From NCBI GenBank assembly GCA_017880775.1, contig JADGRQ010000015.1, positions 22,749-86,748 of the forward strand: a DNA stretch of 64,000 bases, given 5' to 3'. A program made the position numbers and the translations under genes. The DNA comes from Burkholderiales bacterium. Lineage in GTDB: Bacteria > Pseudomonadota > Gammaproteobacteria > Burkholderiales > SG8-39. The notes below the pieces were generated by a model. That model was given only the letters and a program-made list of their open reading frames with translations, was not told the origin of the DNA and did not search any database. Positions 4,171-19,631 of the stretch are shown one piece after another (position 1 is the stretch's first letter; each line of letters begins with the position of its first letter).

Positions 4171-4674
4171 CTACGGCTGGATGTAGGCGTAGCCTTTGGA
4201 CTGGTACGCCATCAGCGAAATCCAGCTGTTGCCGATGACCTTGATCTCCGGGAGTACGTTCTCCGCCTTCGTTTCCTGCTGCCGGATTGCCACCGAGCAC
4301 TGTTCGATGCCGTTGACCCCCGGCGCCTTGCTCAACTCCCCGATCCTGGCGGCGATCTTGCCGGCGAGTTCGCGGTCCTCGGGCTTGACCTTGCTCATGT
4401 CGGTCTGCACCAGCTTGGTCGCCGGTCCGCGGAACGCGATCACGAACTGCGGCGTCACGCCCTGCTTGATCAGCGAGGCGCGAGTCTCGTCGATCACGTT
4501 GAGTCGGTTGAGCAGGCCCTTGGCGTCGCCTTCCACGATGTCGAAAGCCACCTTCAGTTCCTTGACGCCGGACAGCACCGTGCGATCGTCCGCCTGCGCC
4601 TGCGCTGCGCCGGGTGCGTTGAGCGCCGCGACGGCGATTACGGCAATCGCGGATACTGCGATTCTGCGGATCAT
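4171..4674 (-). CDS. Exported DsrE/DsrF-like family protein
   Basis: This is a 167-residue protein with a signal peptide (MIRRIAVSAIAVIAVAALNA, cleavage near AQA). The rest looks like the DsrE/F-like alpha/beta fold: KELKVAFDIVEGDAKGLLNRL, VIAFRGPATKLVQ, and a Cys in IEQCSVAIRQQ at the position where family members carry a conserved cysteine. Relatives are small sulfur-handling or unknown periplasmic proteins. The start was chosen because a GGAGG lies just upstream of the ATG. It follows the malic enzyme by 37 bases and is probably the last intact gene of the long operon. A sulfur role is suggested only by family name and neighbours. Confidence 0.65.
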   Translation of the reverse strand: MIRRIAVSAIAVIAVAALNAPGAAQAQADDRTVLSGVKELKVAFDIVEGDAKGLLNRLNVIDETRASLIKQGVTPQFVIAFRGPATKLVQTDMSKVKPEDRELAGKIAARIGELSKAPGVNGIEQCSVAIRQQETKAENVLPEIKVIGNSWISLMAYQSKGYAYIQP

Positions 4675-4711
4675 TTCATCTCCTCCAAAGGTTGTTGTCA
4701 TTTCCGCAGCC

Positions 4712-6361
4712 CTACACGTAGCTCGGATAGCGCGGGTCGTACATGTGCGACTTCACGTCGGCGAGAACGTCCTGCGGCCGCGGCTTGCCGGCAAGCCCGC
4801 TTGCGTATGCCGACTCGGCCACCGCGGTCGCGATTGCCGCCGAAACCTCGCGGATGCGCTCCAGCGCCGGGAAAAGGCTGCCCTGCTCGAGGTCGGCTTC
4901 GTCCACCCGTTCCGCAAGGCTGCGCGCCGCGGCCATGAACATGTCGTCGGTGACATGGCGCGCGCGGCTGACGATCACGCCGAGTCCGACGCCGGGAAAG
5001 ATATAAGAGTTGTTACCCTGCCGCGGCACGAACGTCCGTCCGTCGATCTTCACCGGATCGAACGGGCTGCCGCAGGCGAACAGCGCGCGGCCGCCCGTCC
5101 ACTGATAAGCCTGCTCCGCGGTGCACTCGGCTTTCGAAGTCGGGTTGGACAGCGCGAATACGATCGGCCGCTGGTTGACGCGTGCCATTTCCTCGAGCGC
5201 CTCGCGCGTGAACGTCCCTCCGACCGCGGCAACGCCGATGATGGCGGTCGGCTTGAGCGCTTTGACGGCTGAAAGGAAATCGCCGATCGGCGCGTGTTCG
5301 TGGGCGTAGGGCCGCTTGTGCTCTACGAGATCGGTTCGTCCTTTCACCACCAGGCCGCGGGAATCCATCAGCCAGCAGCGCTGGCGGGCCGCGGCCGGCT
5401 CGAGGCCCTGCGCGGCGATTGCCGCCACGGCAAGGTTGGCGATTCCGGTGGCGGCCTCCCCGGCGCCGAAGAACAGCAGCCTCTGGTCGGCGAGTTTCCC
5501 GCCGGTGACGCGCAGCGCGGAGAATATTCCGGCGAGGGCAACCGATGCGGTGCCCTGGATGTCGTCGTTGAAAGTGCAGATTCGGTCGCGGTACTTCGCC
5601 AGCAATCGGAACGCATTGTGATTGGCGAAGTCCTCGAACTGGATCACCACGCCGGGAAACACTTCCCGCGCGGCAGTGATCAGTTCGTCGATCAGCTCAT
5701 CGTAGGCGGCGCCGGTAATTCGGTGCTGGCGCAGGCCGATGTAGAACGGATCGGCAAGCAGCGTCTCGTTGTTGGTGCCGACATCGATCGTGACGGGCAG
5801 GCAAAGGCTGGGATGGATCCCGGCGCACGCGGTGTAGAGCGAGAGCTTGCCGACGGGGATGCCCATGCCCTGCGCGCCCTGGTCGCCCAGGCCGAGGATG
5901 CGCTCGCCGTCCGTGACGACGATAATGCCTGCCTGGTGCGGCCAGTTGCGCAGCACGCTCGCCACGCGGCCGCGGTCGTTGGCGCTGATGTAGATGCCGC
6001 GCGGGCGCTGGAAAATCTGGCCGAAGCGCTGGCAGGCGAGCCCTACGGTGGGCGTGTAGATGAGCGGCTGCATTTCGTCCACGTGATCGCAGATCACCCG
6101 GAAGAACAGCGCCTCGTTGCGGTCGTGCAATGCGTTCAGCGCGACGAACTTGTCGAGCGGATCGGCCATCGGCCGCAGGTACTGCAGCACGCGCGCCATT
6201 TGCACGTCCTGCGTGTGCACGTGCGGCGGAAGCAGGCCGCGCAGCCCCAGCGCGTCGCGTTCTTCCTCGGTGAAGGCGGTGCCCTTGTTGAGCAGGGGGT
6301 CCTGCAGCAGAGCCATTCCCTTTGGAATTTCCGGCGTTGGGCGTTGCGGAGGTGCAGCCAT
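4712..6361 (-). CDS. maeA: NAD-dependent malic enzyme
   Basis: This is a 549-residue malic enzyme converting malate to pyruvate, CO2 and NADH. The N-terminal half has the YTPTVGLACQRFGQIFQRPR motif and FEDFANHNAFRLL with metal-binding acids. The C-terminal Rossmann domain has LLFFGAGEAATGIANL and the conserved FALSNPTSKAECT. The length matches the long bacterial/eukaryotic NAD-malic enzyme class (about 550-560), with no phosphotransacetylase extension. The ATG chosen has AAGGA upstream. It sits 60 bases after the VOC gene at the end of the operon, where it could turn malate made by the fumarase into pyruvate. Confidence 0.93.
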   Translation of the reverse strand: MAAPPQRPTPEIPKGMALLQDPLLNKGTAFTEEERDALGLRGLLPPHVHTQDVQMARVLQYLRPMADPLDKFVALNALHDRNEALFFRVICDHVDEMQPLIYTPTVGLACQRFGQIFQRPRGIYISANDRGRVASVLRNWPHQAGIIVVTDGERILGLGDQGAQGMGIPVGKLSLYTACAGIHPSLCLPVTIDVGTNNETLLADPFYIGLRQHRITGAAYDELIDELITAAREVFPGVVIQFEDFANHNAFRLLAKYRDRICTFNDDIQGTASVALAGIFSALRVTGGKLADQRLLFFGAGEAATGIANLAVAAIAAQGLEPAAARQRCWLMDSRGLVVKGRTDLVEHKRPYAHEHAPIGDFLSAVKALKPTAIIGVAAVGGTFTREALEEMARVNQRPIVFALSNPTSKAECTAEQAYQWTGGRALFACGSPFDPVKIDGRTFVPRQGNNSYIFPGVGLGVIVSRARHVTDDMFMAAARSLAERVDEADLEQGSLFPALERIREVSAAIATAVAESAYASGLAGKPRPQDVLADVKSHMYDPRYPSYV

Positions 6362-6421
6362 GGTGTGGATCCTTGTTGAACAAAACACGGCCCTGGATTG
6401 GGGGTCACGCGATCGCGCAGC

Positions 6422-6913
6422 TTACTCCCGCGAACGGCGCCCGCTTTGATTCATTTCAATCAGGTCCGAGGCCATCAGCTCGGGCTCGATCCCCTCGGCC
6501 TCGGAGGCCGCGAAGTTCAGCTCGACCTTGATGCCGTTCGGATCGAAGAGAAACAACTGGAACAGCGCCTGATCGTTGGCTCGCCGCTGCGTGAACGCGA
6601 CGCCGCGCGAGCGCAGGTGAGCGAGCATCTCGCGCAGGCCGGCGGCGCGAAACGCGATGTGATCGAGCGCGCCGGTGCCGGCCCCCGCGTCCTGCGAGGT
6701 GCGGCCGAGGAATTTCTTCTGGACCTCGCCGGCCTTCGCGGCGCTCGGCCCGATGTGCACCACGTCGCGCCCATCGAGGTACATCCAGTACACGGGAAAG
6801 CCGAACTCCGGGTGTGGGCCTTCTTCCATGCCGAGCACCGCACGGTACCAGTCGCGCGTCGCCTCCTGGTCGTCGGTGGCGACGAGAAAGTGCTCGATGT
6901 GCGACAGCGGCAT
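6422..6913 (-). CDS. VOC (glyoxalase/dioxygenase superfamily) protein
   Basis: This 163-residue protein has two VOC half-repeats. The first begins LSHIEHFLVATDDQEATRDWY with a candidate metal His, and the second begins TGALDHIAFRAAGLREMLAHL and ends NGIKVELNF with a Glu. These fit a divalent-metal site of vicinal-oxygen-chelate enzymes. The family includes lyases, isomerases, epimerases and dioxygenases, so the reaction is not predictable. It is 10 bases downstream of the flavoprotein gene and is probably co-transcribed. An epimerase acting on a CoA or hydroxy-acid intermediate would suit the setting but is a guess. Confidence 0.8.
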   Translation of the reverse strand: MPLSHIEHFLVATDDQEATRDWYRAVLGMEEGPHPEFGFPVYWMYLDGRDVVHIGPSAAKAGEVQKKFLGRTSQDAGAGTGALDHIAFRAAGLREMLAHLRSRGVAFTQRRANDQALFQLFLFDPNGIKVELNFAASEAEGIEPELMASDLIEMNQSGRRSRE

Positions 6914-6923
6914 GCGGTCGATC

Positions 6924-8645
6924 TTATTTCAGCAGTGTCTCACCCGGCCTCACGCGGCTGAACGCGACCGCCTTCATCGCGATCTCCAGCCCACCGCCGC
7001 CTGCGCGAACGCTGGTGTAGGCCGACTGCTCGAGCGGACCGGTCTCGGGGAAATCGCTCCGGAAATGCGCTCCGCGCGAGTCTTGCCGCGCCAGCGCTGC
7101 CGCGGCGATCGCCTGGCTGGTTTCGACCAGGCTCTTCAGGTTCATCCAGTCGTGCCACGAAAGATTGAACGCACGGTCGGCGTTCACGCCGAGCGCGTGC
7201 GCATCGAGCGCGGCATCGATGTCGCGCAACTCGCGCGCGGCTGTTTCGAGCTCGCCGCCCTCCCGGATGATCCCGACCTTGTCCCACATCAGTCCGTAGA
7301 GGCGCTCGCGCACTTCTTCCAGCGCACCATGCGAACCCGGTGTACCACGCAACGGCCGCTCGCACGCGGCGACGGCCGCCTCGATCACGTCACGATCCGC
7401 ATCGCGCAACTTTCCTCCGTCCGTCACCCACGCCGACATCGCATCGCCCGCCACACCGCCGAACACCGTGGAATTGGCAACGCCGTTGCCGCCGAGCCGG
7501 TTCGCGCCATGCACGCCGCCCGCGTCCTCGCCCGCCACGAACAGGCCCGGCAGCGTGGTGCTGCAATCGGGGTTGAACTCGACTCCGCCCATCATGTAGT
7601 GCGCGGTGGGCACCACTTCGACCAGGCCGCCGGCGAGATCGAAGCCGCAGTCGGCGCAGCGCTCGACCATACCCTTGAACTCCTTGCGCACGCGCTCCGG
7701 CCCGAGATGCGCCATCGCGATGTACAAGCCGCCGTTGGGGGTGACGCGCCCGGCGCGCATTTCGGACATCATCGAGCGCGAGACGACGTCGCGCGTCGCG
7801 CGCTCGAGTTTCGGGTCGTAGTTCTGCATGAAGCGTTGATTGACGCCATTCAGCAGGTAGCCGCCCGAGCCGCGCAGACCCTCTTCCAGCACCGTGCCGG
7901 TCATGCGCGTATGCGTCCCGGCGAGCAATCCGGTCGGGTGAAACTGCACCATCTCCATATCGCGCAGGGGCAGGCCCGCGCGCAGCGCCATCGCCAGCCC
8001 GTCGCAGCTCTTGTCGCCCGAGGGCGTGTGGTATTTGTACATCGTCGGCCCCCCGCCGGTGGCGAGCAGCACGGCCTTCGCGCGCACCAGCACGTACTCG
8101 CCGGTGCGCATGTCGATCATCAGCACGCCGGCGAGCGCGTCGCCCGCTTTCGTTTTCACCAACTCCACCGCGCGATGCTCTTCCAGGCGCCCGATGTCGC
8201 GCGCCCACACCTGTTCGGCGAGCCGGTTGATGATCTCGATGCCGGTCAGGTCGCCCTTGTGCACCGTGCGGTCGAAGGTCTGCCCGGCAAAGGCCTTCTG
8301 GTGGATGCTGCCGTCGGGATTGCGGTCGAAGAAGCAGCCGAGTTCGTTCTCGAGTTCATGGATGCGCTCGACCGCGAGCGTCACCAGCTTCCAGGCGAGG
8401 TCCTGGTCAGGCAGCCACTTGCCGCCCTCGATGGTGTCCATGAAATGGCGCTCAATCGAGTCGCCGGCCGCGAGCGCGACGTTGTAGCCGCCCTGCACCA
8501 TGCGCGTGCAGCCGCATTTGCCGAGCAGGCCCTTCACCGCGACGGTGATCGAGAGTTCCGGCGCCCCCTGGTGGGCGTGCAGCGCGGCGAACAGCCCGGC
8601 GCCGCCCGAGCCGAGGATCAGGATGTCGGTGGAAAGCTCGCGCAT
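6924..8645 (-). CDS. Fumarate reductase/succinate dehydrogenase-like flavoprotein subunit
   Basis: This is a 573-residue FAD enzyme of the SdhA/FrdA/NadB superfamily. The N-terminal dinucleotide fold is DILILGSGGAGLFAALHAH. The active-site signatures are MEMVQFHPTGL, EEGLRGSGGYLLN and the C-terminal HGANRLGGNGVANSTVFGG. The stretch that holds the covalent-FAD histidine in classical SdhA reads LGKCGCTRMVQGG here, with no His, so FAD is probably non-covalent. No SdhA homologue other than this one is in the window, and Fe-S and membrane subunits lie upstream in the same operon. I infer they assemble into one complex. It would oxidise a saturated dicarboxylate-like substrate to an enoate, or the reverse. 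Confidence 0.85.
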   Translation of the reverse strand: MRELSTDILILGSGGAGLFAALHAHQGAPELSITVAVKGLLGKCGCTRMVQGGYNVALAAGDSIERHFMDTIEGGKWLPDQDLAWKLVTLAVERIHELENELGCFFDRNPDGSIHQKAFAGQTFDRTVHKGDLTGIEIINRLAEQVWARDIGRLEEHRAVELVKTKAGDALAGVLMIDMRTGEYVLVRAKAVLLATGGGPTMYKYHTPSGDKSCDGLAMALRAGLPLRDMEMVQFHPTGLLAGTHTRMTGTVLEEGLRGSGGYLLNGVNQRFMQNYDPKLERATRDVVSRSMMSEMRAGRVTPNGGLYIAMAHLGPERVRKEFKGMVERCADCGFDLAGGLVEVVPTAHYMMGGVEFNPDCSTTLPGLFVAGEDAGGVHGANRLGGNGVANSTVFGGVAGDAMSAWVTDGGKLRDADRDVIEAAVAACERPLRGTPGSHGALEEVRERLYGLMWDKVGIIREGGELETAARELRDIDAALDAHALGVNADRAFNLSWHDWMNLKSLVETSQAIAAAALARQDSRGAHFRSDFPETGPLEQSAYTSVRAGGGGLEIAMKAVAFSRVRPGETLLK

Positions 8646-8649
8646 CCCG

Positions 8650-9438
8650 TCACTTGCCTGCCGGCACCACGGCGCGCATTCCGCCCAGATGCATACCCGA
8701 ATCGAGATCGATCAGCTCGCCCGTGATCGTGCGCGCGCCGATCAGCCACACCACCGCCTCTGCGACGTCCTCGGCGGAACAGGCGCGGCCAAGCGGCGTG
8801 GTCTGCTCGTAGCCGGCTTTCAGCTTCTCGTAGGCCTCCTGCCCGATGCCGTCGGTGAACCAGCGCGTCGTGATCATGCCGGGGCAGACCGCGTTCACGC
8901 GCACCTGCGGCGCAAGCGCGCGCGCAAAATGCAGGGTCATCGCATTCACGCCGCCTTTCGATGCGACGTAGGGAACCGACGATCCGATGCCCTGCGACCC
9001 CGCGATCGACGAGACATTGACGATCGCGCCGTCGCCGCTTGCCTTCAGATGCGGCGCGGCGGCGCGCAGCATCTGGAAGCTGCCGACAACGTTGACACCG
9101 AGGATGCGGGCGAAGGCGGCCGCATCGAGCGCGTCCCAGTTGGCTGAGCCAGCAAAGGTGGTGACGCCGGCGTTGTTGACCAGCGCATCGAGCCGGCCCC
9201 AGCGCTCGAGCGTCGATTGCACGATACGGCGGCACGCGGCGTCGTCCGAGACGTCGCCCTGGCAGAGCAGTGCTTCGGCGCCAGTTGCCCGGCAGTGCGC
9301 CTCCGATTCGCGCGCCTCGCGTTCGCTCTTCGCGTAGTTGATGGTCACGTTCCAGCCGCGCCCGGCGAGCATCAGCGCCACCGCGGCGCCGACGCCGGTT
9401 GCTGAGCCGGTGACGATTGCCGTCTTGCTTGGCTTCAT
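8650..9438 (-). CDS. Short-chain dehydrogenase/reductase (SDR)
   Basis: This is a 262-residue classical SDR with the cofactor motif VTGSATGVGAAVAL, NNAG in ALVNNAGVTTF, a catalytic Ser in NVSSIAGSQGIG, YVASKGG as the YxxxK pair, and the usual VNAVCPGMITT. It would interconvert an alcohol and a ketone with NAD(P)H in the cytoplasm. The start follows the ATG of MKPSKTAIV rather than the longer ORF-track start. It lies four bases before the flavoprotein gene and 13 after the TRAP permease gene, so it belongs to the operon. In the proposed sulfonate pathway it could interconvert sulfolactate and sulfopyruvate, but nothing in the sequence proves this. Confidence 0.88.
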   Translation of the reverse strand: MKPSKTAIVTGSATGVGAAVALMLAGRGWNVTINYAKSEREARESEAHCRATGAEALLCQGDVSDDAACRRIVQSTLERWGRLDALVNNAGVTTFAGSANWDALDAAAFARILGVNVVGSFQMLRAAAPHLKASGDGAIVNVSSIAGSQGIGSSVPYVASKGGVNAMTLHFARALAPQVRVNAVCPGMITTRWFTDGIGQEAYEKLKAGYEQTTPLGRACSAEDVAEAVVWLIGARTITGELIDLDSGMHLGGMRAVVPAGK

Positions 9439-9451
9439 GATCGACTCCCCT

Positions 9452-11554
9452 TCACGCGCTCTGTGGCGCGGCACGGCCGCGCAGCGACTGCGATACGACA
9501 ACGACCGCGAGCAGACCGAGCCCGATCCAGTCGAACAGTGCCTTCGGATAGACCAGCATCAGGCCCGCGATGATCAGCAACCAGCGCTCGATCCAATTGG
9601 TCCGCCGGAACAGCCAGTTCTGCATGCCCGCGGCGAGCGCGGCGATGCCGATTGCGGCGGTGACCGTGACCAGCGCGATCGATCCCCAGTCGGCGCCACC
9701 GAGCGTCTTGATCGAACCGGTGAGCAGCAGGCCCGTTCCTGAAGGATCAAGCACGAACATGAACGGCACCAGGAAGGCGGGCATGGTGTACTTCCAGGAT
9801 TGCATCGTCGTCCTGTACGGATCGCCTCCGGTGATGGCCGCGGCCGCGAACGGCGACAGCGCCGTCGGCGGCGACACCTCCGAGAGCACCGCGTAATAGA
9901 AGATGAACATATGCGCGGCGAAATCAGGCACGCCGAGCTGGATCAGCGCCGGCGCTGCGATTACCGCGCAGATGATATACGAGGCAGTGACGGGCACCGC
10001 GAGCCCGACGATCCAGACGATCGCGCAGGTGAAGAACGCGGTGAGCAGCAGCTTCATGTCGTGCAGCAGCGCCGCAGTCTGCTCGACGCCGAACAGGGCC
10101 ACGCCGCCCGCGAGCAGGCGGGCGCCGGAATCGGCGTAGGACAGCACGATCGAACTGAATTTCAGTCCCAGCCCGGTCAGGGTCACCACTCCTACGATGA
10201 CGCCGGCAGCGGCGCAGGTGGCGGCGACGCTGATCACGCCGATGGAACCGTTCTCCAGTGCCTTTACCAGCCCGGAGTTCCACAGCCCCTTCACGACCGG
10301 GATCTTCCCGCGGAACCAGTCGTAGGGAATCAGCGCGCAATCGCGGTTGAGGAACGAAACCACAAACGAGACTACGGTGGCCCAGAACACCGACAGAACC
10401 GGCGAGTAGCCGAGCAGCATGAAGAAGATGATCGCCACCAGCGACAGGAAGTGAAAGCCGAGGCGTTTGCTGAGCTGCCAGGCGGTGGCATGCCGTTCGA
10501 TCGGCACGTTGTGCATGCCGAACTTGCGCGCATCGATCTCGACCATCAGGAATATTCCCAGGTAGTACAGCAGCGTCGGGATGGTTGCCATCAGGATCAC
10601 GTCGAGATACGAGATCTTGAGGAACTCCGCAATCAGGAATGCCGCCGCGCCGAGCACCGGTGGCGAGAGGATCGCACCCAGCCCGCCCGCGGCAAGCAGC
10701 CCGCCCGCGGCATCCTTGCCGTAGCCGGCTTTCGCCAGCATCGGGTAGGCGACCGATCCGATCGTCACCGTGGTGGCCACGCCGGAACCGGACGGCCCGC
10801 CGAGCAGGAATGACGCCAGCACCACCGTGCGCCCGGCGCCCGAGGGCTTGCCGCCCATCGCCGCGAACGAAAAGTCGAGAAAGAATTTGCCGGCGCCGGA
10901 GAACTGCAGGAACGCGCCGTAGATCGTGAACAGGATGATGAGCGACGAGGAAACATCCACCGCCACGCCGAAAATTCCTTCCAGCGTCATGTACATGTGC
11001 CCGACCAGGCGCGCGATGTCGTAGGACTTGTGCGTCCACGGCGGAGGCAGCAGCTCCCCGCCGATCGCATACAGCAGGAACGCGACGCAGACCGCGGGCA
11101 TGATCCAGCCCGAGGTGCGGCGCGCCACTTCCAGCACCAGCACGATGAAGGTGGCGCCGAAGACGATGTCCCAGTTGTCGGGCGTGATGTTGCGGTCGGT
11201 GAACTCGTCGCCGCCGACCAGCATGTACACGACCGCGGCGACGCCGGCGAGCGCGAGCACAACGTCCCACCACGTAATCCTGGCGCGGTAGCGCGGCAAC
11301 GCGGGAAACAGCAGAAACCCGAGGAACAGCACGAACCCGACGTGGATCGGGCGCAGCGCCTGTGTCGGCACGATGCTGTAGGCCGCGTAGAGGTGGAACA
11401 CCGACATCACCAGCGCCACCAACGTGATGAACACGCCGACCGCGCCGCTCGGCTTGCGCGACGCGCCCTCTTCGGCTTCGATGAACTCCTCGGCCTTCTT
11501 CAGCGATTCCTCGCTGACGACGACCTCGTCCGCCGGTTTCTTCTCGTCCGCCAT
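9452..11554 (-). CDS. TRAP transporter fused permease (4TM/12TM)
   Basis: This is a 700-residue polytopic membrane protein that matches the fused small-plus-large permease of TAXI-type TRAP transporters. After a charged N-terminal tail rich in Glu and Lys come about 16-18 hydrophobic segments. They include the conserved GGPSGSGVATTVTIGSVAYPM and AAGGLGAILSPPVLGAAAFLIAEF regions, and SEVSPPTALSPFAAAAITGG. It would import an organic acid using the sodium gradient, together with the TAXI receptor encoded just upstream with 16 bases between. It sits centrally in the catabolic operon, so its substrate is probably the operon's growth substrate. Confidence 0.92.
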   Translation of the reverse strand: MADEKKPADEVVVSEESLKKAEEFIEAEEGASRKPSGAVGVFITLVALVMSVFHLYAAYSIVPTQALRPIHVGFVLFLGFLLFPALPRYRARITWWDVVLALAGVAAVVYMLVGGDEFTDRNITPDNWDIVFGATFIVLVLEVARRTSGWIMPAVCVAFLLYAIGGELLPPPWTHKSYDIARLVGHMYMTLEGIFGVAVDVSSSLIILFTIYGAFLQFSGAGKFFLDFSFAAMGGKPSGAGRTVVLASFLLGGPSGSGVATTVTIGSVAYPMLAKAGYGKDAAGGLLAAGGLGAILSPPVLGAAAFLIAEFLKISYLDVILMATIPTLLYYLGIFLMVEIDARKFGMHNVPIERHATAWQLSKRLGFHFLSLVAIIFFMLLGYSPVLSVFWATVVSFVVSFLNRDCALIPYDWFRGKIPVVKGLWNSGLVKALENGSIGVISVAATCAAAGVIVGVVTLTGLGLKFSSIVLSYADSGARLLAGGVALFGVEQTAALLHDMKLLLTAFFTCAIVWIVGLAVPVTASYIICAVIAAPALIQLGVPDFAAHMFIFYYAVLSEVSPPTALSPFAAAAITGGDPYRTTMQSWKYTMPAFLVPFMFVLDPSGTGLLLTGSIKTLGGADWGSIALVTVTAAIGIAALAAGMQNWLFRRTNWIERWLLIIAGLMLVYPKALFDWIGLGLLAVVVVSQSLRGRAAPQSA

Positions 11555-11570
11555 GCCCCGGCCCGCGGCC

Positions 11571-12536
11571 CTATTTCAGCTTGATGCCCTTCTCCGCGAA
11601 ATACTTGATCGCGCCGGGATGGAACGGGATCACCGCCGCGTCGTTGCTCTGGTACTTCAGATCGAAGTTCTCGGCTTCCTTGTGCACCGTAACCAGCTCG
11701 GCCTTCTTGTCGAAAATGGTCTTGACGATGTCGTAGGCAGCCTTGTCGCTCATGCTGGCATTCGTCACCAAGGTGTTCCACACGGTGGCGTTCTTGTTGT
11801 CGGCGTCCATGCCGGAGTAGGTGGACTTCGGAATCACATCCTCGATGTAGAGATTCCCGTACTTCTTGTTCATTCCCTTCACTGCTTCCGCGTGATCGAT
11901 CATCTTGATCTTCACGCCCGGCGTGGCGGCGAGGTCGGTGATGGATGCGGTGGGCAGCCCACCGACCCAGAAGAAGGCATCGATCTTGCGGTCCTTGATC
12001 GCGTTCACCGATTCGGCTACACCGAGGCGCTCGCGCTTCATGTCCTTGTCCTTGTCGAGGCCGGAGGCCTCGATCACGCGAAACGCCATCACTTCCGTAG
12101 CGCTCCCCGGCGAACCGGTCGAGACGCGCTTGCCCTTCAGGTCGGCCATCTTGCTGATCCCGGCACCCTCGATCGAAACCACGTGCATGCGGTTCGGATA
12201 TAGGACCATCAGCGTGCGCACCGGCACCTTGCCGCTCTTGAATTTGTCCACGCCGTTGTAGGCGTCGAGTCCGGCATCGACCATCGAAAAAGCAATATAG
12301 GGCTTGCCGCTCGCGATCAGCTGCAGGTTCGCAACCGAGCCGCCAGTGACTTCCGCCGTGGCCTGCATGCCGGGCACATACTTGGAGAGCACTGCGGCCA
12401 CGCCGCCGCCGAGCGGATAGTAGACGCCGCCCGTCCCACCCGTCGCGATCGACAGATTGATCTTCTCCTGACCGCCGGCAACGCCCGCAATGGCGACGCC
12501 GGCAGCAACGGCTGCGAATCGAATCAAGCTTTGCAT
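11571..12536 (-). CDS. TAXI-family TRAP transporter solute receptor
   Basis: This 321-residue protein has a signal peptide (MQSLIRFAAVAAGVAIAGVA). It then has the TAXI-family signature LSIATGGTGGVYYPLGGGVA and ATAEVTGGSVANLQLIASGK. Later family features include KGKRVSTGSPGSATEVMAF and DAFFWVGGLPTASITDL. It is the periplasmic binding protein of the adjacent fused TRAP permease. A strong AGGAGG precedes the ATG, which suggests high expression, as expected for a receptor. Known TAXI ligands include glutamate, 2-oxoglutarate and other carboxylates. The ligand here is unknown, and a sulfonated carboxylate would be chemically plausible. Confidence 0.92.
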   Translation of the reverse strand: MQSLIRFAAVAAGVAIAGVAGGQEKINLSIATGGTGGVYYPLGGGVAAVLSKYVPGMQATAEVTGGSVANLQLIASGKPYIAFSMVDAGLDAYNGVDKFKSGKVPVRTLMVLYPNRMHVVSIEGAGISKMADLKGKRVSTGSPGSATEVMAFRVIEASGLDKDKDMKRERLGVAESVNAIKDRKIDAFFWVGGLPTASITDLAATPGVKIKMIDHAEAVKGMNKKYGNLYIEDVIPKSTYSGMDADNKNATVWNTLVTNASMSDKAAYDIVKTIFDKKAELVTVHKEAENFDLKYQSNDAAVIPFHPGAIKYFAEKGIKLK

Positions 12537-12611
12537 TGAAACCTCCTGGATTGGTGGGCGCTCTGGGATCGGCGCCTCGATGAACCGCTGGAGCGCGATG
12601 TTACTTGATTT

Positions 12612-13220
12612 TTACTTCACCCCGAGCCGCGCAAGCACTTCCGCTCGCCGCGCCTGGGCGCTGCGTTTCACCTCGGTATAGAGGCTGCCGCCGTGGCTGT
12701 CCATCGCGACCAGCAGCGGCCCGAAACCCTTCACGCGGAACTTCCACAGCGACTCCGGATTGAGGTCGTCGAGATCGACGTCCTCGATCGCTTCGACCCA
12801 GGTGGTCTCGAGCGCCGCGGTGCCGCCGATGATCGCCAGATAGACACCGCCCAGATCGGTGAACGCGGCAGCTGAAGCCTCGCGCAGACCGCCCTTGCCG
12901 ATGATGATGCGCACCCCGCACTGCAGCATCAGCGGCCGCGTGAAGCGCTCCATGCGGTCGCTGGTGGTGGTGCCGACGCAGACCGGAGCGTAGCCGGAAG
13001 GATGCTCGTCGCTTGCGTCCACCCGCTTGACGTTCGGCGCGGTGTGGATCACCGCGTGGCCGCGCAGGTCGAAGCGCGTCTTGCGGCCGCGGTCGAACAT
13101 GTGAATCTGCGTCGCGTCGCGGATGCCGTACAGCGTGCCGTTCAGGGTGACGGTGTCGTTCACGCGCAGCGCGCGCACCTGGTGCTCGCTGACCGGTGCG
13201 GTGAAATCGTGGTGCGCCAT
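12612..13220 (-). CDS. Class I fumarase / L-tartrate dehydratase-type beta subunit
   Basis: This is a 202-residue protein matching the C-terminal (beta) domain of two-subunit Fe-S hydro-lyases. It has DTVTLNGTLYGIRDATQIHM, then VGTTTSDRMERFTRPLM, GVRIIIGKGGLREASAAAF, AIIGGTAALETTWVEAIEDV and a terminal LLVAMDSHGGSLYTEV. With the alpha subunit seven bases upstream it would add water to an enoate such as fumarate, or dehydrate tartrate. Heterodimeric enzymes of this type include fumarase, mesaconase and tartrate dehydratase. Sequence alone does not separate them. Confidence 0.9.
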   Translation of the reverse strand: MAHHDFTAPVSEHQVRALRVNDTVTLNGTLYGIRDATQIHMFDRGRKTRFDLRGHAVIHTAPNVKRVDASDEHPSGYAPVCVGTTTSDRMERFTRPLMLQCGVRIIIGKGGLREASAAAFTDLGGVYLAIIGGTAALETTWVEAIEDVDLDDLNPESLWKFRVKGFGPLLVAMDSHGGSLYTEVKRSAQARRAEVLARLGVK

Positions 13221-13227
13221 CGTGTGC

Positions 13228-14103
13228 TTAAAAACCGTACTCGATCCCGCCTGCGCGAAACGTCGCGCGCGCGCGCCGCGCCGAATGGCATTGCATGTTG
13301 ACCGCCACCGGGTTCATCGTGATATGGGTCGCCGCGGTTTCCACGTGCACCGCGAATGCGGTCGAATCCCCGCCCAGCCCCTGCGGGCCGACGCCCAGGC
13401 CGTTCACCGCGGCGCTCAATTCCGCTTCGAGCTTCGCGCCCTCGGGATCGGCGCACTGCGAGCCGAGCGCTCGCGTCGCCGCGACCTTGGCCAGATGCAC
13501 GCACAGGTCGGCGGTGCCGCCCACGCCCACGCCGACGATGGTCGGCGGGCAGGTCTTGCCGCCCGCCTCGAGCACGCAATCGACGACGAAGGTCTTGATC
13601 GCGTCCACGCCCTCGGCCGGGATCGCCATCTTCAGCCAGGAGTTGTTTTCCGAACCCGAGCCCTTCGGCACCATCTCGATCTCGAGCGTCTCGGGCGTAT
13701 CGGTGAAATCGATATGGATCACCGGCACGTGCCGTCCGCTCGAATCGTGCTCGTTCACGCGCGTGGTCGGATGCACGATCGACGACCGGAACGAATACTC
13801 GCGCGTCGCGCGCTGGCAGCCGCGCCGTATCGCTTCCTTCATCTCCACGCCGTTCATTTCCACGCCACGGCCGATCCACACGTTGTAGATCGGGATGCCG
13901 GTGTCCTGGCACAGCAGGTTGTCGGTGTGCTCGGCCACACTGATGTTGGTGATCATCGTGCCGAGCACGCGCTTCGCGGTCGCATCGGTCTCGCGCGCAT
14001 TGAGCGCCGCCATCCCGGTCTTGATGTCCGGCGGCAGCAGCTTGAGGGCGCGGATGTAGAGTTCCTTGGCCGCTTCCTCGACCTCGCGCGGATCGATGCG
14101 CAT
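13228..14103 (-). CDS. Class I fumarase / L-tartrate dehydratase-type alpha subunit
   Basis: This is a 291-residue Fe-S hydro-lyase alpha subunit. Conserved features are CQDTGIPIYNVWIGRGVEMN (first cluster Cys), a Cys in GGKTCPPTIVGVGVGGTADL, GLGVGPQGLGGDSTAFAVHV and VAVNMQCHSARRARA with the last Cys. Together these supply the three ligands of the [4Fe-4S] cluster. It pairs with the beta subunit encoded immediately downstream. The gene starts four bases after the Bug receptor stop codon, well inside the operon. The substrate could be fumarate or a fumarate analogue. The Arg-rich C-terminus is ordinary for the family. Confidence 0.92.
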   Translation of the reverse strand: MRIDPREVEEAAKELYIRALKLLPPDIKTGMAALNARETDATAKRVLGTMITNISVAEHTDNLLCQDTGIPIYNVWIGRGVEMNGVEMKEAIRRGCQRATREYSFRSSIVHPTTRVNEHDSSGRHVPVIHIDFTDTPETLEIEMVPKGSGSENNSWLKMAIPAEGVDAIKTFVVDCVLEAGGKTCPPTIVGVGVGGTADLCVHLAKVAATRALGSQCADPEGAKLEAELSAAVNGLGVGPQGLGGDSTAFAVHVETAATHITMNPVAVNMQCHSARRARATFRAGGIEYGF

Positions 14104-14107
14104 CGAA

Positions 14108-15070
14108 TTACCTGACCGAGATCTTCCGCTCGCGCACGACGCGCGCCCAGAGCTGCGTCTCTTCCTTCATCGCCTTGCCGAAAGCCTCGGGCGAGTTGCC
14201 GACCGGTGCCAGGCCCTGCACGTAGAAGCGCGCCTTGAACTCGGTGCTCTCGAGCGCTTTCTTCGTATCCAGGTAGACCTTCTGGATGATGTTTTTCGGC
14301 GTGCCGGCCGGCGCGACGATGCCGAACCACCCCGAGTTCTCGAATCCGGGCAGCGTCTGCGCGACGGGCGGCACGCCCGGCAGCTGTGGCGCCTCGGTCT
14401 TGCTGGTGACACCGAGCGCGCGCAGCCGCCCGCCGGTGATATGGCTGATTGCGGCGGCGAGATTGGTCACTGCGAACGTGGTCTCCCCGCCGATCAACCC
14501 GACCAGCGCGGGACCTTCGCCTTTGTAGGGAATCGCAAGCGCGTCGATCTTCGCGGAATTGACGAAGTTTTCCGCCGCGAGATGCGTCTGCGACCCAATT
14601 CCCGCATGCCCAAAGGTTAATTTTCCGGGCTGGTCCTTCGCCGCCTCGACCAGTTCTTTCACCGACTTGTAGGGGGAGTTGGCCGGCACGACAACGACCT
14701 GGGGGCCGCTGACCACGTTGGTCACCGGTACGAAGTCCTTTTCCGGGTCATAGTTCATTTTCGCGTAGATGTGCTGGTTCGCCGTCATCACCGATCCGGA
14801 CGGAAAGAACAGCGTGTAGCCGTCGGGCGAGGCGCGCGCGGCTTCCGCCGCGCCGACGCCGCCGCCCGCGCCGCCGCGATTCTCGATCACCACCGATTGC
14901 CCCCACATTTCGGAGAGCTTCTGCCCGATCATGCGCGCGGAAATGTCGGTCGCGCCGCCCGGCGGGAACGGAACGATGAATTTCACCGGTTTCGACGGCC
15001 AGCCCTGCGCGCCTGCGGCAGCCGCCCACGCGAACGCGATGATCGCGACGATCGACTTGAACGACCTCAT
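14108..15070 (-). CDS. Bug/TctC-family periplasmic solute receptor
   Basis: This is a 320-residue receptor with signal peptide (MRSFKSIVAIIAFAWAAAAG). It has the core WPSKPVKFIVPFPPGGATDIS, ENRGGAGGGVGAAEAARASPDGYTL and ALAIPYKGEGPALVGLIGGE. It lacks adjacent tctA/tctB genes but lies inside the operon between the membrane subunits of the dehydrogenase-like complex and the fumarase genes. In other bacteria a Bug-type receptor and TctAB-type permease (slc genes) serve 3-sulfolactate uptake, so a receptor beside SuyAB-like genes is suggestive. Here a permease would have to be encoded elsewhere. A GTG one codon upstream is an alternative start. Confidence 0.88.
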   Translation of the reverse strand: MRSFKSIVAIIAFAWAAAAGAQGWPSKPVKFIVPFPPGGATDISARMIGQKLSEMWGQSVVIENRGGAGGGVGAAEAARASPDGYTLFFPSGSVMTANQHIYAKMNYDPEKDFVPVTNVVSGPQVVVVPANSPYKSVKELVEAAKDQPGKLTFGHAGIGSQTHLAAENFVNSAKIDALAIPYKGEGPALVGLIGGETTFAVTNLAAAISHITGGRLRALGVTSKTEAPQLPGVPPVAQTLPGFENSGWFGIVAPAGTPKNIIQKVYLDTKKALESTEFKARFYVQGLAPVGNSPEAFGKAMKEETQLWARVVRERKISVR

Positions 15071-15106
15071 CACCGCCTCCTTGTAGTTATGGGTCGCATT
15101 CTATCC

Positions 15107-15439
15107 TCACAACGCGAGGGCAAACGCGAGTCCTGCGGCAAGCGCAAACGCAGCGGCGACGGCAGCGAGGGTCTTGTGCCAGTCCCGCCAGGGCAGGAAT
15201 TCGAGCGCCAGCACGCGCAGGCCCCCGGCGAGGTGCGCGGCGAGCAACACCACCAGTCCCCACATGCCGATATGAAATAGCGGCTGATCGGTCCAGCGCA
15301 GGAACGCTTCGAGCTTCGCCGCAGCTTCCAGCGCCTGGCCAAGCGCCCAGAAATGCAGCGGCAGGAACAGCGCGAGCGCAATGCCCGAAATCCGATGCAC
15401 GAGGAACGCCCACCATCCCGGATGGTTGCGCCCGCGCAT
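15107..15439 (-). CDS. Succinate dehydrogenase-like membrane anchor subunit (second)
   Basis: This 110-residue membrane protein has three hydrophobic helices. HRISGIALALFLPLHFWALG contains the HRxSG motif of SdhC/FrdC anchors. HIGMWGLVVLLAAHLAGGLR contains a His spaced as a heme-b ligand. A final Ala/Leu-rich helix closes the protein. It would anchor the Fe-S and flavoprotein subunits to the inner membrane and pass electrons to or from quinone. The ATG overlaps the stop of the preceding anchor gene by one base (TGATG). The first half of the longer ORF-track frame is shadow of the neighbour. Confidence 0.8.
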   Translation of the reverse strand: MRGRNHPGWWAFLVHRISGIALALFLPLHFWALGQALEAAAKLEAFLRWTDQPLFHIGMWGLVVLLAAHLAGGLRVLALEFLPWRDWHKTLAAVAAAFALAAGLAFALAL

Positions 15440-15786
15440 CAGGTCAACGCGCCCGTCACCGCCAGCACCGCGCGCATGCCGGCCCACGCGAGGAGCGCAG
15501 CGAACAGCCACATCGCGGCATCGCAGCCGCGGCCGCGCCAGGCAGCCCATTCACGCAGGACGGTGCGCAAGCCGATCGGCGCATGCACCGCGCAGGCGAG
15601 CACGAACAGCGAATAAAACGCGAGCCAACCAGGGTTGCCCCTCGTACGACCGAGAATCTCGGCCGCGGAGATTCCGCCGCGCATCGCGTAGATTATGGTC
15701 GCGAGGTGCACCACTACGCACAGCGCAAGCACCACCGCGCTCGCGCGCTGCGCGACCCACAGCAACGTCTGCGAGCGTGGGCTCAT
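15439..15786 (-). CDS. Succinate dehydrogenase-like membrane anchor subunit (first)
   Basis: This is a 115-residue membrane protein with three hydrophobic segments (VAQRASAVVLALCVVVHLAT, LAFYSLFVLACAVHAPIGLR, AAMWLFAALLAWAGMRAVLA). The QRxS...H and HAPIGLR patterns match SdhC/SdhD anchors with possible heme ligands. Its ATG overlaps the Fe-S subunit stop as ATGA, so the three genes are translationally coupled and almost surely form one complex. It is short for the family but complete. Which of the two anchors corresponds to SdhC or SdhD cannot be decided here. Confidence 0.78.
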   Translation of the reverse strand: MSPRSQTLLWVAQRASAVVLALCVVVHLATIIYAMRGGISAAEILGRTRGNPGWLAFYSLFVLACAVHAPIGLRTVLREWAAWRGRGCDAAMWLFAALLAWAGMRAVLAVTGALT

Positions 15787-16535
15787 AGCGTACCCTTCAG
15801 CGCAGCCAGCGCCACAGCGCGCTTCAAGCCCGCGATGCCGGCAGTCGGGGACAGCTGCTTCGGGCAGCGCTCGGTGCAGGACAAGTGCGTGTGGCACGAG
15901 GCACAGCCGGCGTCGCCCGATACCGCGCGCAGCCGCTCGAGGCCGGCGGTGTCGCGCACGTCGTTCACCAGCGTCCAGGCGCGCAGCAGCGCGGCAGGGC
16001 CGAGGTAGTCCGGGTTCCACGCCACGCTATCGCAGGCGCTGTAGCACACGCCGCAGCCGATGCACTCGATGCCGGATTCAACCTGTTGCCGCTCGGTGCT
16101 CGCCGGCGCGACCCGCGCGAACTCGTCGTGCCGCGTATTTCCACCGTCAAAACGCCCCCTGGAACGCGCCCATTTGTCGAAAAACTCGCGCATGTCGGCA
16201 ACCAGATCGCGGATCACCGGCAGGTTGGAGAGCGGCGCGATCTCGAGCCGCCCGTCGCCAGCGACCTTGTCCACATGGGTGCGGCAGGTCCAGCGCGGAA
16301 CGCCGTTCACGGTCATCGCGCACGAGCCGCACATGCCGACGCGGCAGGCGTAGCGGTAGGCAAGCGTCGCGTCCAGGCTGCGCTGGATATGCATGACCAC
16401 GTCGAGCACCGTCTGGGTGGCGTGGCGGGGAACTTCGAACGGCTGGAATTCGCCGTCCGCGTGTCCACGCCAGACCCGGACCAGGAGCTGCGGGGGGTCT
16501 GAGGGGGGCGCAGCCCCCTTCTCACGCCGGCTCAC
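15783..16535 (-). CDS. Succinate dehydrogenase/fumarate reductase-like iron-sulfur subunit
   Basis: This is a 250-residue SdhB-type electron-transfer protein. The plant-ferredoxin-like domain has CRVGMCGSC plus a later Cys84 for the [2Fe-2S] cluster. The C-terminal domain has [11 protein letters not shown] (158-168) and [15 protein letters not shown] (211-224) for the other two clusters. The [16 protein letters not shown] block is close to the SdhB consensus. The GTG start overlaps the SuyB-like stop (GTGA). The first 15 residues lie over a GC hairpin and look unlike SdhB, so the true start could be slightly later. The matching flavoprotein is encoded about 7 kb further along the operon rather than next door, which is unusual. 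Confidence 0.85.
16504..16518. repeat. GC-rich REP-like hairpin at the SuyB/Fe-S gene junction
   Basis: The sequence GGGGGC-GCA-GCCCCC forms a perfect six-pair hairpin with a three-base loop. It is followed by another C-rich run on the coding strand. It lies a few codons inside the GTG-started Fe-S subunit gene, just after the upstream stop codon. Short palindromes of this kind are common between genes in Burkholderiales genomes, from memory. It may dampen or couple translation of the Fe-S subunit, but that is a guess. Confidence 0.5.
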
Positions 16536-17707
16536 GCGCTCTCGTACAACCTCGTCAATACGAACTCGCGGTGGCCAAGCGCTTCGGCCGCGGTGAATCG
16601 GCCGTTGGCAGTCCGGAACATGCATTCGAGCAGCTTGTCTCCCGCCTCGTCCGGCGACATCTCCCGTCGCAGCAGGCCGGAGACGTCTACGTCGATATGC
16701 TCGCTCATCGTGCGCACGGTGCGCGGATTTGCGGACAGCTTGATCACCGGGAGGATCGGGTTGCCGATCACGTTGCCCTGGCCGGTGGGAAACAAGTGCA
16801 CAACAAATCCGGCTGCGGCCAACAGCGTCACCATCTCGGCCGCGGCGGAAGAGGAATCCATGAACCACAGACCCGGGCCGGTCGGCACCTCCGCCTTGTC
16901 GATCACGCCGTCGACCAGGCATTTGCGCCCGATCTTCTGGATGTTGCCGAGCGCCTTTTCCTCGATCGTGGTGAGCCCGCCGAGGATGTTTCCCTTGGTC
17001 GGCTGCGAATCCATCAGGTCGGTGGTCCGGTGGTGGTTGATGATGTCCTGGTAGCGGTCGAACATGAACTGGAACTTTTTGCGCACCTCATCCGTGCGGC
17101 AGCGCGCCGCAACCAGATGTTCCCCGCCCGTCAATTCGGTGGTCTCGCCGAACACCAGCGTCACGCCGTGCGGATAGAGCTTGTCGAAAGCATTGCCGAC
17201 GGTGGGATTCGAACCGCACCCCGAAGTCGTGTCGGACTCACCGCACTTGGTGGACACCCAGAGGTCCTTCAGCGGGCGTTCCTCGCGGCGCAGTTCGGAT
17301 GCCCACTGCACGTATTCCTTCGCCGCTTTCGACGCGCGCATGATGGTGTCATGATCGCCGTGCTGCTCGATGCCGAACCAGGACACCGGCTTGCCGGTCG
17401 CGCTGATGCCGTCGGCGACTTTCTTCGCCCAGCCGTCCTCGATGCAGATCACCACGACGGCGGCGACGTTCGGGTTGCAGCCGGTGCCGATCAGGGTGCG
17501 GAAATGCAGATCCAGGTCGGCGCCGAACTGCAGCCGTCCGTAGGGGTGCGGCAGCGCCAGAGCGCCCTTGATGTTGTTCGCGACCGCCTCGGCGGCTGCG
17601 TTCGACAGGTCGTCGACCGGCAGGATAATGACGTGGTTGCGCACGCCGACGCGGCCGTTCTCGCGCTTGTAGCCCCAGAAAGTTGCTTTTGAAAGATCCA
17701 TCGCCAT
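16532..17707 (-). CDS. suyB: SuyB-like UxaA-family lyase, large subunit
   Basis: This is a 391-residue protein of the UxaA/GarD dehydratase-lyase family without the N-terminal SAF domain, which is supplied by the separate small gene upstream. Landmarks are [80 protein letters not shown] and [17 protein letters not shown]. The split into small and large genes and these motifs fit (2R)-3-sulfolactate sulfo-lyase SuyB (pyruvate plus sulfite from sulfolactate) as I recall it. Altronate or galactarate dehydratases are usually single long proteins. The exact substrate is unproven. The ATG with GGTGA upstream was preferred over the longer ORF-track start. Confidence 0.7.
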
Positions 17708-17712
17708 GGGAT

Positions 17713-17994
17713 TCACCAACGCTTGGTCTTGATGTTGTGGACATGGGCGTGCTCGCCCGGCTTGATCGCCGCAACCGTGCGGCCAATATCGACGCCGTAC
17801 TTGATCACGGTGTCGTCGTTCTTCAGCTCCTTGATCGCCAACTTGTGGCCGATGGGGATGTCGCTCCTCGCCTGGAAGCGGATCTCCTTGTCCTGGTCCA
17901 TGATCCAGCCGGTCAGTTCCTGCCCGGCCTTCACGCCCTCGACCACGACGACGCCGACCGAATCGCTCTCGTCGTGCACCACGAAATGAATCAT
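17713..17994 (-). CDS. suyA: SuyA-like UxaA-family lyase, small (SAF-domain) subunit
   Basis: This is a 93-residue SAF-domain protein. After [20 protein letters not shown] it has [20 protein letters not shown] and [20 protein letters not shown], and it ends [10 protein letters not shown], the pattern of the N-terminal part of UxaA-type dehydratases. As a free small subunit it resembles SuyA of 3-sulfolactate sulfo-lyase. The ATG has a good AAGGAG and lies about 22 bases after the expected start of transcription from a sigma70-like promoter. It is the first gene of the long operon and is five bases from the large subunit gene. Confidence 0.7.
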
Positions 17995-18022
17995 TGCCGT
18001 TCTCCTTGCGCGGGGAGAAGCG

Positions 18023-18051
18023 AGTCTAGTCCCGCGACCGGCGAATGTCAG
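18023..18051 (-). promoter_or_regulatory. Sigma70-like promoter of the suyAB/sdh-like/fum operon
   Basis: Read on the minus strand, CTGACA (five of six to the -35 consensus) is followed after exactly 17 bases by TAGACT (four of six to the -10). It lies in the 92-base gap between the SuyA-like gene and the divergent phoD. The predicted transcript starts about 22 bases before the SuyA-like ATG. No obvious operator palindrome was seen here. Confidence 0.55.
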
Positions 18052-18086
18052 CAATCCGTGACCCGGATGCGCTACAGTTTCGATAC

Positions 18087-19631
18087 ATGCAGAATCGACG
18101 CAGTTTCCTGAGGGCACTCGCTGCGCTGGGCGCCGCAGCCGCGACGCCCGTGCGCGCGCAACCCCGTCCGCGCTTCGCCAAAGACCCCTTCTCGCTCGGC
18201 GTCGCCTCGGGCTACCCGCGGCCTGACGGGGCGGTCATCTGGACGCGGCTCGCGCCCGACCCGACCCGCGGCGACGGCGGCCTCGATCCGGCGGTGATTC
18301 CGGTGCGCTGGGAAGTCGCGCGCGACGAGCGCTTCTCCTCGATCGCCGCAGAGGGCACGGTACAGGCAGCGCCGGAGTGGGCACACTCGGTACACGTGGA
18401 GTTGAACGGCCTCGATCCGGACCACGGGTACTCGTACCGCTTTTTATCCGGCGAAGCGGCGAGCCCCGCCGGCCGCCTGCGCACCGCGCCCGCGTTCGAT
18501 TCTGCGCCTGCGCGCCTGCGCTTCGCGTTCGCCTCCTGCCAGCAGTACGAGCAAGGGTATTTCGCCGCCTATCGCCACATGGCCGCCACCGACCTCGACC
18601 TGGTCGTATTCCTCGGCGACTACATCTACGAATCCTCGTGGGGGCGCGAGCACGTGCGCAAGCACAACGCTCCCGAGCCTTACACGCTGGAGGACTATCG
18701 AGCGCGCTACGCGCTATACAAGGGCGACACGGACCTGCAGGCGGCGCACCAGGCGTTCCCGTGGATTGTCACCTGGGACGACCACGAGGTCGACAACGAT
18801 TACGCGAACGACCGGCCCGAAGACGGCATGCCGCGCGAGCAGTTTCTGGCGCGCCGCGCCGCTGCGTACAAGGCGTATTACGAGCACATGCCGCTGCCCG
18901 GGGCCATGCGCCCCGACGGGCCGGACATGCGCATTTACACGAAACTTGCATGGGGGAGACTCGCGAACTTCTACCTCCTCGACGACCGGCAATACCGCGC
19001 GCACCAGGTCTGCCCGAAGTATGCCGGCGGGTCGACCGTGGTCGATCCGGCCCAGTGCGCCGAGATCGGCGCCCCGCAGCGCAGCATGCTCGGTTCCGCA
19101 CAGGAAGCGTGGCTCGATCGCGAGTTCGCCGCCACTCGCGCAGCATGGAACATCCTTGCGCAGCAGACGCTGATGGCGCAACTCGACCGCAAGCCGGGTG
19201 AAGGCCAGCAGTTCTGGACCGACGGCTGGGACGGCTACCCCGCGGCGCGGCGCAAGCTGCTCGAATCGATCGCGGCTAAAAAGGTCGCAAATCCGGTGGT
19301 GATCGGCGGCGACGTGCACATGCACTGGGTGGCCGACCTGATGCCCGACTTCGATGACCCGAAATCACCGGTCGTGGCGAGCGAATTCGTCGGCACCTCG
19401 ATCACGTCGCAGGCCGCGACCCAGAAAAGCGTCGATGCGATCCTGCCGGAAAACCCGCATATCAGATACGGGCGCAGCGACAAACGCGGCTACGTGCGCG
19501 CGGAGATCGGCGGCGGGCGTTTCAGTGCCGAGCTGATTGGAATGGAAACCGTGAAGCGCCCGGAATCCGGCGCAAGCGTGCTTGCGCGCTTCGTGGTGGA
19601 GGACGGCAAGCCCGGCGCGCAGCGCGGCTAG
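18087..19631 (+). CDS. phoD: PhoD-family alkaline phosphatase/phosphodiesterase
   Basis: This is a 514-residue metallophosphatase. The twin-arginine signal MQNRRSFLRALAALGAAAAT precedes the PhoD N-terminal fibronectin-like domain (DPFSLGVASGYPRPDGAVIW). The catalytic domain follows, with FAFASCQQYEQGYFAAYRHM, FLGDYIYESSW, TWDDHEVDNDYAND and VIGGDVHMHWV, which supply the Asp/Asn/His metal ligands. It is exported folded through the Tat system and releases phosphate from phosphodiesters. The ATG directly before the RR motif was chosen over the upstream ORF-track start. It is divergent from the large operon and followed 47 bases later by the GGT-family gene. Confidence 0.93.
   Translation: MQNRRSFLRALAALGAAAATPVRAQPRPRFAKDPFSLGVASGYPRPDGAVIWTRLAPDPTRGDGGLDPAVIPVRWEVARDERFSSIAAEGTVQAAPEWAHSVHVELNGLDPDHGYSYRFLSGEAASPAGRLRTAPAFDSAPARLRFAFASCQQYEQGYFAAYRHMAATDLDLVVFLGDYIYESSWGREHVRKHNAPEPYTLEDYRARYALYKGDTDLQAAHQAFPWIVTWDDHEVDNDYANDRPEDGMPREQFLARRAAAYKAYYEHMPLPGAMRPDGPDMRIYTKLAWGRLANFYLLDDRQYRAHQVCPKYAGGSTVVDPAQCAEIGAPQRSMLGSAQEAWLDREFAATRAAWNILAQQTLMAQLDRKPGEGQQFWTDGWDGYPAARRKLLESIAAKKVANPVVIGGDVHMHWVADLMPDFDDPKSPVVASEFVGTSITSQAATQKSVDAILPENPHIRYGRSDKRGYVRAEIGGGRFSAELIGMETVKRPESGASVLARFVVEDGKPGAQRG

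Follow-up and report, generated by a model that had tools for sequence, protein, structure and literature searches.

A minus-strand operon in a 64,000-nt stretch of DNA from a Burkholderiales bacterium (GenBank assembly GCA_017880775.1, contig JADGRQ010000015.1; the whole stretch is called the window below) probably encodes a catabolic route for 3-sulfopropanoate, a substrate that we propose from gene content. The operon combines a lyase of the (2R)-sulfolactate sulfo-lyase family (SuyAB), a succinate dehydrogenase (SDH)-like complex, and a class I fumarase-like enzyme (FumAB), assigned by Pfam and NCBIfam profile matches (Table 1). All of its genes lie in a single run from suyA to a DsrE-like gene, with overlaps or short gaps throughout: the stop codon of suyB overlaps the GTG start of sdhB (GTGA), as an earlier note on this DNA had pointed out, and sdhB overlaps the first anchor gene (ATGA). 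The gene set listed in that note was recovered in full, with a weak match for the DsrE-like protein (E = 0.05), but the list had omitted a VOC-family gene (6422-6913). Chance gathering is excluded, as the core suyAB-sdhBCD-fumAB-sdhA was found again in dozens of other genomes in a comparison spanning more than 1,000 genomes overall.

The substrate, the direction, and the products of the steps preceding SuyAB are predicted here from family membership, clade structure, and gene linkage. 3-Sulfopropanoate would be imported by the TRAP-TAXI and/or Bug proteins, after which the membrane-bound, quinone-linked SDH-like complex (6924-8645 and 15107-16535) would remove two hydrogens to give 3-sulfoacrylate, and FumAB would hydrate this product with L-malate geometry to (2R)-3-sulfolactate. 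SuyAB, assigned here to a family of known activity, would then split (2R)-sulfolactate into pyruvate and sulfite, and the sulfite would be exported or oxidized by proteins encoded elsewhere in the genome. 3-Sulfopropanoate, sulfoacrylate, and sulfolactate are analogs of succinate, fumarate, and malate, respectively. The earlier note had proposed the same sequence of reactions, which the trees and the conserved gene context support, with the substrate remaining a prediction.

By family, the UxaA-type pair of the window is a genuine SuyAB, for which the activity of the family is known. For neighborhood comparison, we took 80 genome loci with 79-91% identity to the window SuyB. At many of these, the adjacent genes encode HpsN-like proteins of the histidinol-dehydrogenase family, an SDR and an alcohol dehydrogenase (HpsO and HpsP), a TRAP transporter, a ComC-type Ldh_2 protein, an SlcC-like dehydrogenase, or a YeiH-type exporter; the best model for the Ldh_2 neighbors is L-sulfolactate dehydrogenase (ComC), with scores below the cut-off of that model. 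On a plasmid of Cupriavidus pinatubonensis HN-2, the order is hpsN-hpsO-MFS-ADH-uxaA-uxaA and SuyB is 79.6% identical to the window copy. Since this is the order of the characterized hpsRNOUPsuyAB cluster of C. pinatubonensis JMP134 (PMC11382572), the context of the HN-2 protein supports the SuyAB identity. In a SuyB tree of 48 rows, in which some outgroup branches are long, the window protein falls within a 37-row clade (support 100/100) together with HpsN-, SlcC-, and ComC-linked SuyB, including the HN-2 and Paracoccus copies. Outside this clade are altronate-type enzymes, Escherichia coli UxaA, GarD, a sugar-acid pair from Priestia, and the UxaA paralog of the same genome. The last (G000:C80:38714-39886, locus L111) is of the altronate-dehydratase type and lies near TRAP-subunit-like genes. 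Directly upstream of suyB is the gene for the small SAF subunit, an order that is kept in relatives. The reading of the pair as a SuyAB-like lyase was thus borne out by phylogenetic placement firmly within the sulfolactate-lyase clade, and its identity as a sugar-acid dehydratase was rejected on the same placement.

The SDH-like complex and the FumAB-like enzyme are, as judged by their sequences, specialized second copies. An ordinary set of SDH genes and a class I fumarase made as a single chain are encoded separately in the window genome, so the sdh-fum set of the window is not its tricarboxylic acid (TCA) cycle. The SdhA-like flavoprotein belongs to a 41-row clade divided from housekeeping SdhA by 100/100 branches, and the ordinary SdhA of the same genome groups with E. 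coli SdhA. Throughout this clade (41/41), the catalytic His242, Arg286, His354, and Arg399 of SDH are kept, whereas the His45 to which flavin adenine dinucleotide (FAD) is covalently attached is replaced by Gly-Cys and Thr254 of the substrate site by Glu. Between positions His242 and Thr254, the clade also carries an extra loop in which an Arg or Lys is conserved (37 R, 4 K). These changes mark an altered substrate site and flavin, but taken alone they do not identify the substrate. At residues 44-50, where SDH has its FAD-linking His motif, the clade has a conserved GCTRM with an invariant cysteine (41/41), and its FAD could be either cysteinyl-FAD or non-covalently bound. The SdhB-like protein has all 11 iron-sulfur cluster cysteines, as inspected by eye, and its orthologs occur in 39 of the 40 order-level loci. 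In a class-wide sample, SuyB was present in 6 of the 9 genomes with the SdhA-like protein, versus 0.3 expected (p = 4e-8).

FumA of the window type forms its own clade (support 100/99), in which the Fe-S residues Cys65, Cys185, and Cys272 and a DTG motif are invariant. Among 399 genomes of the order Burkholderiales, 50 encode it, and 49 of these 50 also have SuyB, as do 3 of the 32 genomes examined that lack this FumA (Fisher p = 1e-17); this value overstates independence, because the genomes are related and the 32 negatives were those first listed or numbered rather than a random draw. The problem of kinship is eased by repeated changes of the sdh-fum link on the SuyB tree, where about 10 changes are counted and at least 6 are forced by well-supported branches. 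In 42 of the 50 genomes, FumA and SuyB are encoded within 20 kb on one contig. From this distribution, the sdh-fum set is a conserved, almost obligate partner of SuyAB.

Many Betaproteobacteria, and genomes from outside that group, carry the genes in the order suyAB-sdhBCD-(transport)-fumAB-sdhA. Conservation of the suyAB-sdhB-fum order was a check named in the earlier note, and its outcome favors the proposal. Sulfonate markers are found within these operons. Three loci (L112, L251, and L256) read suyAB-sdhBCD-TauE-SsuABC-like transporter-fumAB-sdhA-slcC-comC, with close variants at L117 and L118. A SorA-family molybdoenzyme gene lies between suyB and sdhB in 5 of the 40 order-level loci, and ComC is encoded in 25 of the 40 neighborhoods. 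A Methylobacterium oryzae plasmid carries the set together with genes for TauE, DctA, SlcC, ComC, SorA (over the curated cut-off), and a YeiH exporter. In Rhodococcus jostii RHA1, the set is split into two parts, approximately 20 kb from each other on pRHL1. Transport genes vary by lineage (TRAP-TAXI, Bug, SsuABC-like, TctAB, or DctA): the Bug receptor is present in 33 of the 40 loci, and the TAXI-type receptor is kept in near relatives (L017, L018, L020, and L221-L223).

The remaining genes of the window operon are a different matter. The malic enzyme, VOC, and DsrE-like genes were each found in none of the 40 orthologous loci and an SDR match in one, which corrects the earlier note, where the malic enzyme, SDR, and DsrE-like protein were listed alongside the other operon genes; these four genes are probably not core but accessory or unrelated. 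A role for the DsrE-like protein in sulfur relay was dropped, given the weak assignment and the 0/40 conservation. Two other genes recur among the orthologous operons. A thiamine-diphosphate enzyme of the acetolactate synthase/oxalyl-CoA decarboxylase type, below the cut-off of every model, is encoded in 18 of the 40 loci (e.g., L237:5426-7078), where its gene either separates suyB from sdhB or lies close to sdhA; it also occurs at L128:5577-7202, L143, and L158, and is absent from the window operon. In 8 of the 40 operons, a sulfatase-like gene (e.g., L231:6167-7573) separates the Sdh anchor genes from that of the Bug receptor.

The stereochemistry of the proposed hydration agrees with the gene content of the window. 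A sulfolactate with the geometry of L-malate is R by the priority rules, so a fumarase-type hydratase would directly supply the enantiomer that SuyAB needs, with no call for SlcC and ComC, which fits an operon that has neither. In the HpsN structure, L-cysteate mimics R-sulfolactate (PMC11382572), and R-sulfolactate is the substrate of SuyAB (PMC12421959). The sulfolactate clusters of Chromohalobacter salexigens and Paracoccus resemble the window in their SuyAB, and ComC/SlcC occur in many operons of the window type, but these clusters also have the racemizing dehydrogenases SlcC and ComC. In the window, hydration with L-geometry would make racemization needless. Perhaps SlcC and ComC are retained in many relatives for other sources of sulfolactate.

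Several observations weigh against a 3-sulfopropanoate route. Loss of the FAD-binding His in E. coli fumarate reductase impairs succinate oxidation, and its absence from the SdhA-like clade makes the redox direction less than certain. The Glu in place of Thr254 would offer no obvious means of binding a sulfonate. Within the operon, no genes for homotaurine or 3-sulfopropanal metabolism were recognized. Sulfite handling in the same genome was checked by SorA, TauE, and YeiH searches: the SorA search found no match, and TauE-family genes are present but outside the operon.

Of the other explanations, the most familiar is that the SDH-like and fumarase-like enzymes act on ordinary C4 acids, with the malic enzyme completing a path from succinate to pyruvate and SuyAB merely co-regulated. 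Both enzyme families belong to the TCA cycle and the window operon does contain a malic enzyme, but the lack of this gene at the orthologous loci and the presence of housekeeping SDH and fumarase led us to reject a plain succinate-to-pyruvate operon. The separate clades, the changed substrate-site residue, and the 49/50 co-occurrence with SuyAB also speak against C4 acids, and we regard this explanation as improbable. We give a similarly small probability to another sulfonate, such as sulfosuccinate, which could pass through dehydrogenation, hydration, and a SuyAB-type elimination to oxaloacetate and sulfite. The three reaction types would work there as well, and malic enzymes of the family found here are able to decarboxylate oxaloacetate; however, that gene is not conserved, SuyB shares 80-92% identity with its counterparts from 2,3-dihydroxypropane-1-sulfonate (DHPS)/sulfolactate clusters, and the frequent neighbor ComC is an enzyme of C3 sulfolactate.

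It is very unlikely that the pathway runs in reverse, with FumAB dehydrating sulfolactate and the flavoprotein using the resulting sulfoacrylate as an electron sink and so forming 3-sulfopropanoate. By our inference, a missing covalent FAD histidine usually marks those family members that favor reduction, which would suit such a direction, but SuyAB would draw on the same sulfolactate, and SuyAB, TauE, and SorA in the same operons show that sulfite is produced. Least probable of all, and scarcely credible to us, is a sugar-acid dehydratase in an operon serving a hydroxy acid, an alternative that the earlier note had kept in view as a UxaA-type dehydratase. Although the nearest NCBIfam model is galactarate dehydratase, the score lies far under its cut-off (137 of 731 bits), and the SuyB tree contradicts this option by placing the protein with SuyB, apart from the altronate and galactarate enzymes and the Priestia pair.

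A second form of the module, variant II, combines a member of the SdhA-like clade with another fumarase-like pair, which is ~25-35% identical to the window pair and forms its own clade (support 100/100; loci L142-L145, L147-L149, L157-L164, L113, L115, and L119-L121). SuyB is missing in 9 of the 14 variant II genomes sampled and present in all 5 genomes with the window form, variant I (Fisher p = 0.03). We found no fixed differences between the flavoproteins of the two forms, indicating that the first step is probably shared and that the dehydrogenase offers no hint of differing substrates. Variant II clusters often carry TauE, YeiH, or SorA nearby, so sulfite is probably still released. Beside variant II in three lineages (L144, L148, and L158) lies a gene for a CoA-acylating, MmsA-type dehydrogenase. 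We tentatively suggest, as a possibility somewhat short of even, that the variant II hydratase adds the hydroxyl group at the sulfonate-bearing carbon, producing 3-hydroxy-3-sulfopropanoate, a bisulfite adduct that would fall apart spontaneously into malonate semialdehyde and sulfite. If true, variant II would represent SuyAB-independent desulfonation through the regiochemistry of a fumarase homolog. Paracoccus versutus has variant II with TauE and YeiH. In Paracoccus wurundjeri Merri, cluster 3, annotated for fumarate/tartrate and including a TauE homolog, was induced on sulfofucose along with SuyAB (PMC12421959). The authors read cluster 3 as related to the Krebs cycle (PMC12421959); it may correspond to the variant II gene set.

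A further form is found on two haloarchaeal plasmids, at L146 (5488-12456) and L151 (4425-12422), where SdhAB-like proteins, TauE, and UxaAB are encoded together, with an Ldh-family gene in one of the two. In these clusters, a protein of the fumarase/argininosuccinate-lyase superfamily replaces FumAB as the candidate hydratase. It scores over the NCBIfam argH cut-off and below that of XcbC (E = 4e-76), an enzyme that forms sulfoacrylate in bacterial coenzyme M synthesis. Because the UxaB of these haloarchaea is a distant relative of SuyB, this case is suggestive.

3-Sulfopropanoate arises in homotaurine metabolism, and one sulfoquinovose pathway has it as an end product. The earlier note had known of no described pathway built in this way, which held at the level of genes: a search of the open literature, which missed most subscription papers, turned up no description of genes for 3-sulfopropanoate degradation. 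It did not hold for the chemistry, since a Konstanz thesis, as cited in PMC11489063, had proposed a sulfoacrylate route for Roseovarius nubinhibens; according to PMC11489063, degradation of 3-sulfopropanoate was otherwise unreported. That homotaurine route has the same intermediates (3-sulfopropanoate, sulfoacrylate, and sulfolactate), but no gene assignment for it appeared in the open literature searched. A 2026 review calls the Bilophila mechanism for 3-sulfopropanoate unclear (PMC12890257). Among known systems, hpsRNOUPsuyAB of C. pinatubonensis JMP134 likewise ends in desulfonation by SuyAB (the window SuyB being ~80% identical to that of HN-2), but its upstream steps are catalyzed by the NAD-dependent HpsNOP, where the window uses an SDH-like complex and a fumarase-like hydratase. 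E. coli SdhCDAB, class I fumarase, and TtdAB share with the window their families, the Fe-S cysteines (including those of fumarase), and the catalytic SDH residues; the window proteins differ in the missing FAD-histidine, the Thr254-to-Glu change, the inserted loop, the separate clades, and the link to SuyAB. The terminal enzyme is known, while the upstream module is probably new and this probably its first gene-level description. If the proposal is true, the missing aerobic route for 3-sulfopropanoate is part of the TCA cycle, copied and recruited for a sulfonate, and is present in about one-eighth of the sampled genomes of the order, in Alphaproteobacteria, on an actinomycete plasmid, and, in altered form, in haloarchaea. 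It would also correct a class of misannotation (genes now labeled succinate dehydrogenase and fumarase) and offer genes and cultured strains for direct test. Cultured carriers of variant I include Paraburkholderia diazotrophica LMG 26031 (L085), Thiomonas delicata DSM 16361 (L075), and Methylobacterium oryzae or radiotolerans (L128), and those of variant II include Methylobacterium nodulans ORS 2060 and Pseudomonas sp. MPC6.

Table 1. Genes of the operon, with positions in the window and the basis of each family assignment.
Feature	Position	Strand	Basis
suyA-like, small SAF-type subunit of (2R)-sulfolactate sulfo-lyase	17713-17994	-	weak SAF match; TIGR03248 N-terminal part
suyB-like, large subunit of (2R)-sulfolactate sulfo-lyase	16532-17707	-	GD_AH domains; SuyB clade 100/100
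SdhB-like iron-sulfur subunit	15783-16535	-	TIGR00384 over cut-off; Fer2_3 + 4Fe-4S
Sdh membrane anchor (Sdh_cyt)	15439-15786	-	PF01127
Sdh cytochrome b-type anchor (Sdh_cyt)	15107-15439	-	PF01127, TIGR02970
Bug/TctC periplasmic receptor, candidate substrate-uptake protein	14108-15070	-	PF03401
Class I fumarase-like alpha subunit (FumA), proposed sulfoacrylate hydratase	13228-14103	-	TIGR00722; own clade 100/99
Class I fumarase-like beta subunit (FumB), proposed sulfoacrylate hydratase	12612-13220	-	TtdB/FumB family
TAXI-type TRAP receptor, candidate importer	11571-12536	-	PF16868 (NMT1_3)
Fused TRAP permease (DctM)	9452-11554	-	PF06808
SDR oxidoreductase	8650-9438	-	PF13561
SdhA-like flavoprotein, proposed 3-sulfopropanoate dehydrogenase	6924-8645	-	Succ_DH_flav_C; 41-row clade
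VOC/glyoxalase-fold protein	6422-6913	-	PF00903
Malic enzyme, start codon uncertain (about 6361-6388)	4712-6388	-	NF010052 over cut-off
DsrE-like exported protein, weak assignment	4171-4701	-	PF02635 E=0.05, below cut-off

The divergent neighbor of suyA in the window is a gene for a PhoD-type phosphatase (18045-19631), which occupies the same place in near relatives (L017, L020, L029, and L221-L223); in more distant relatives, a GntR regulator is encoded beside suyA at this position.

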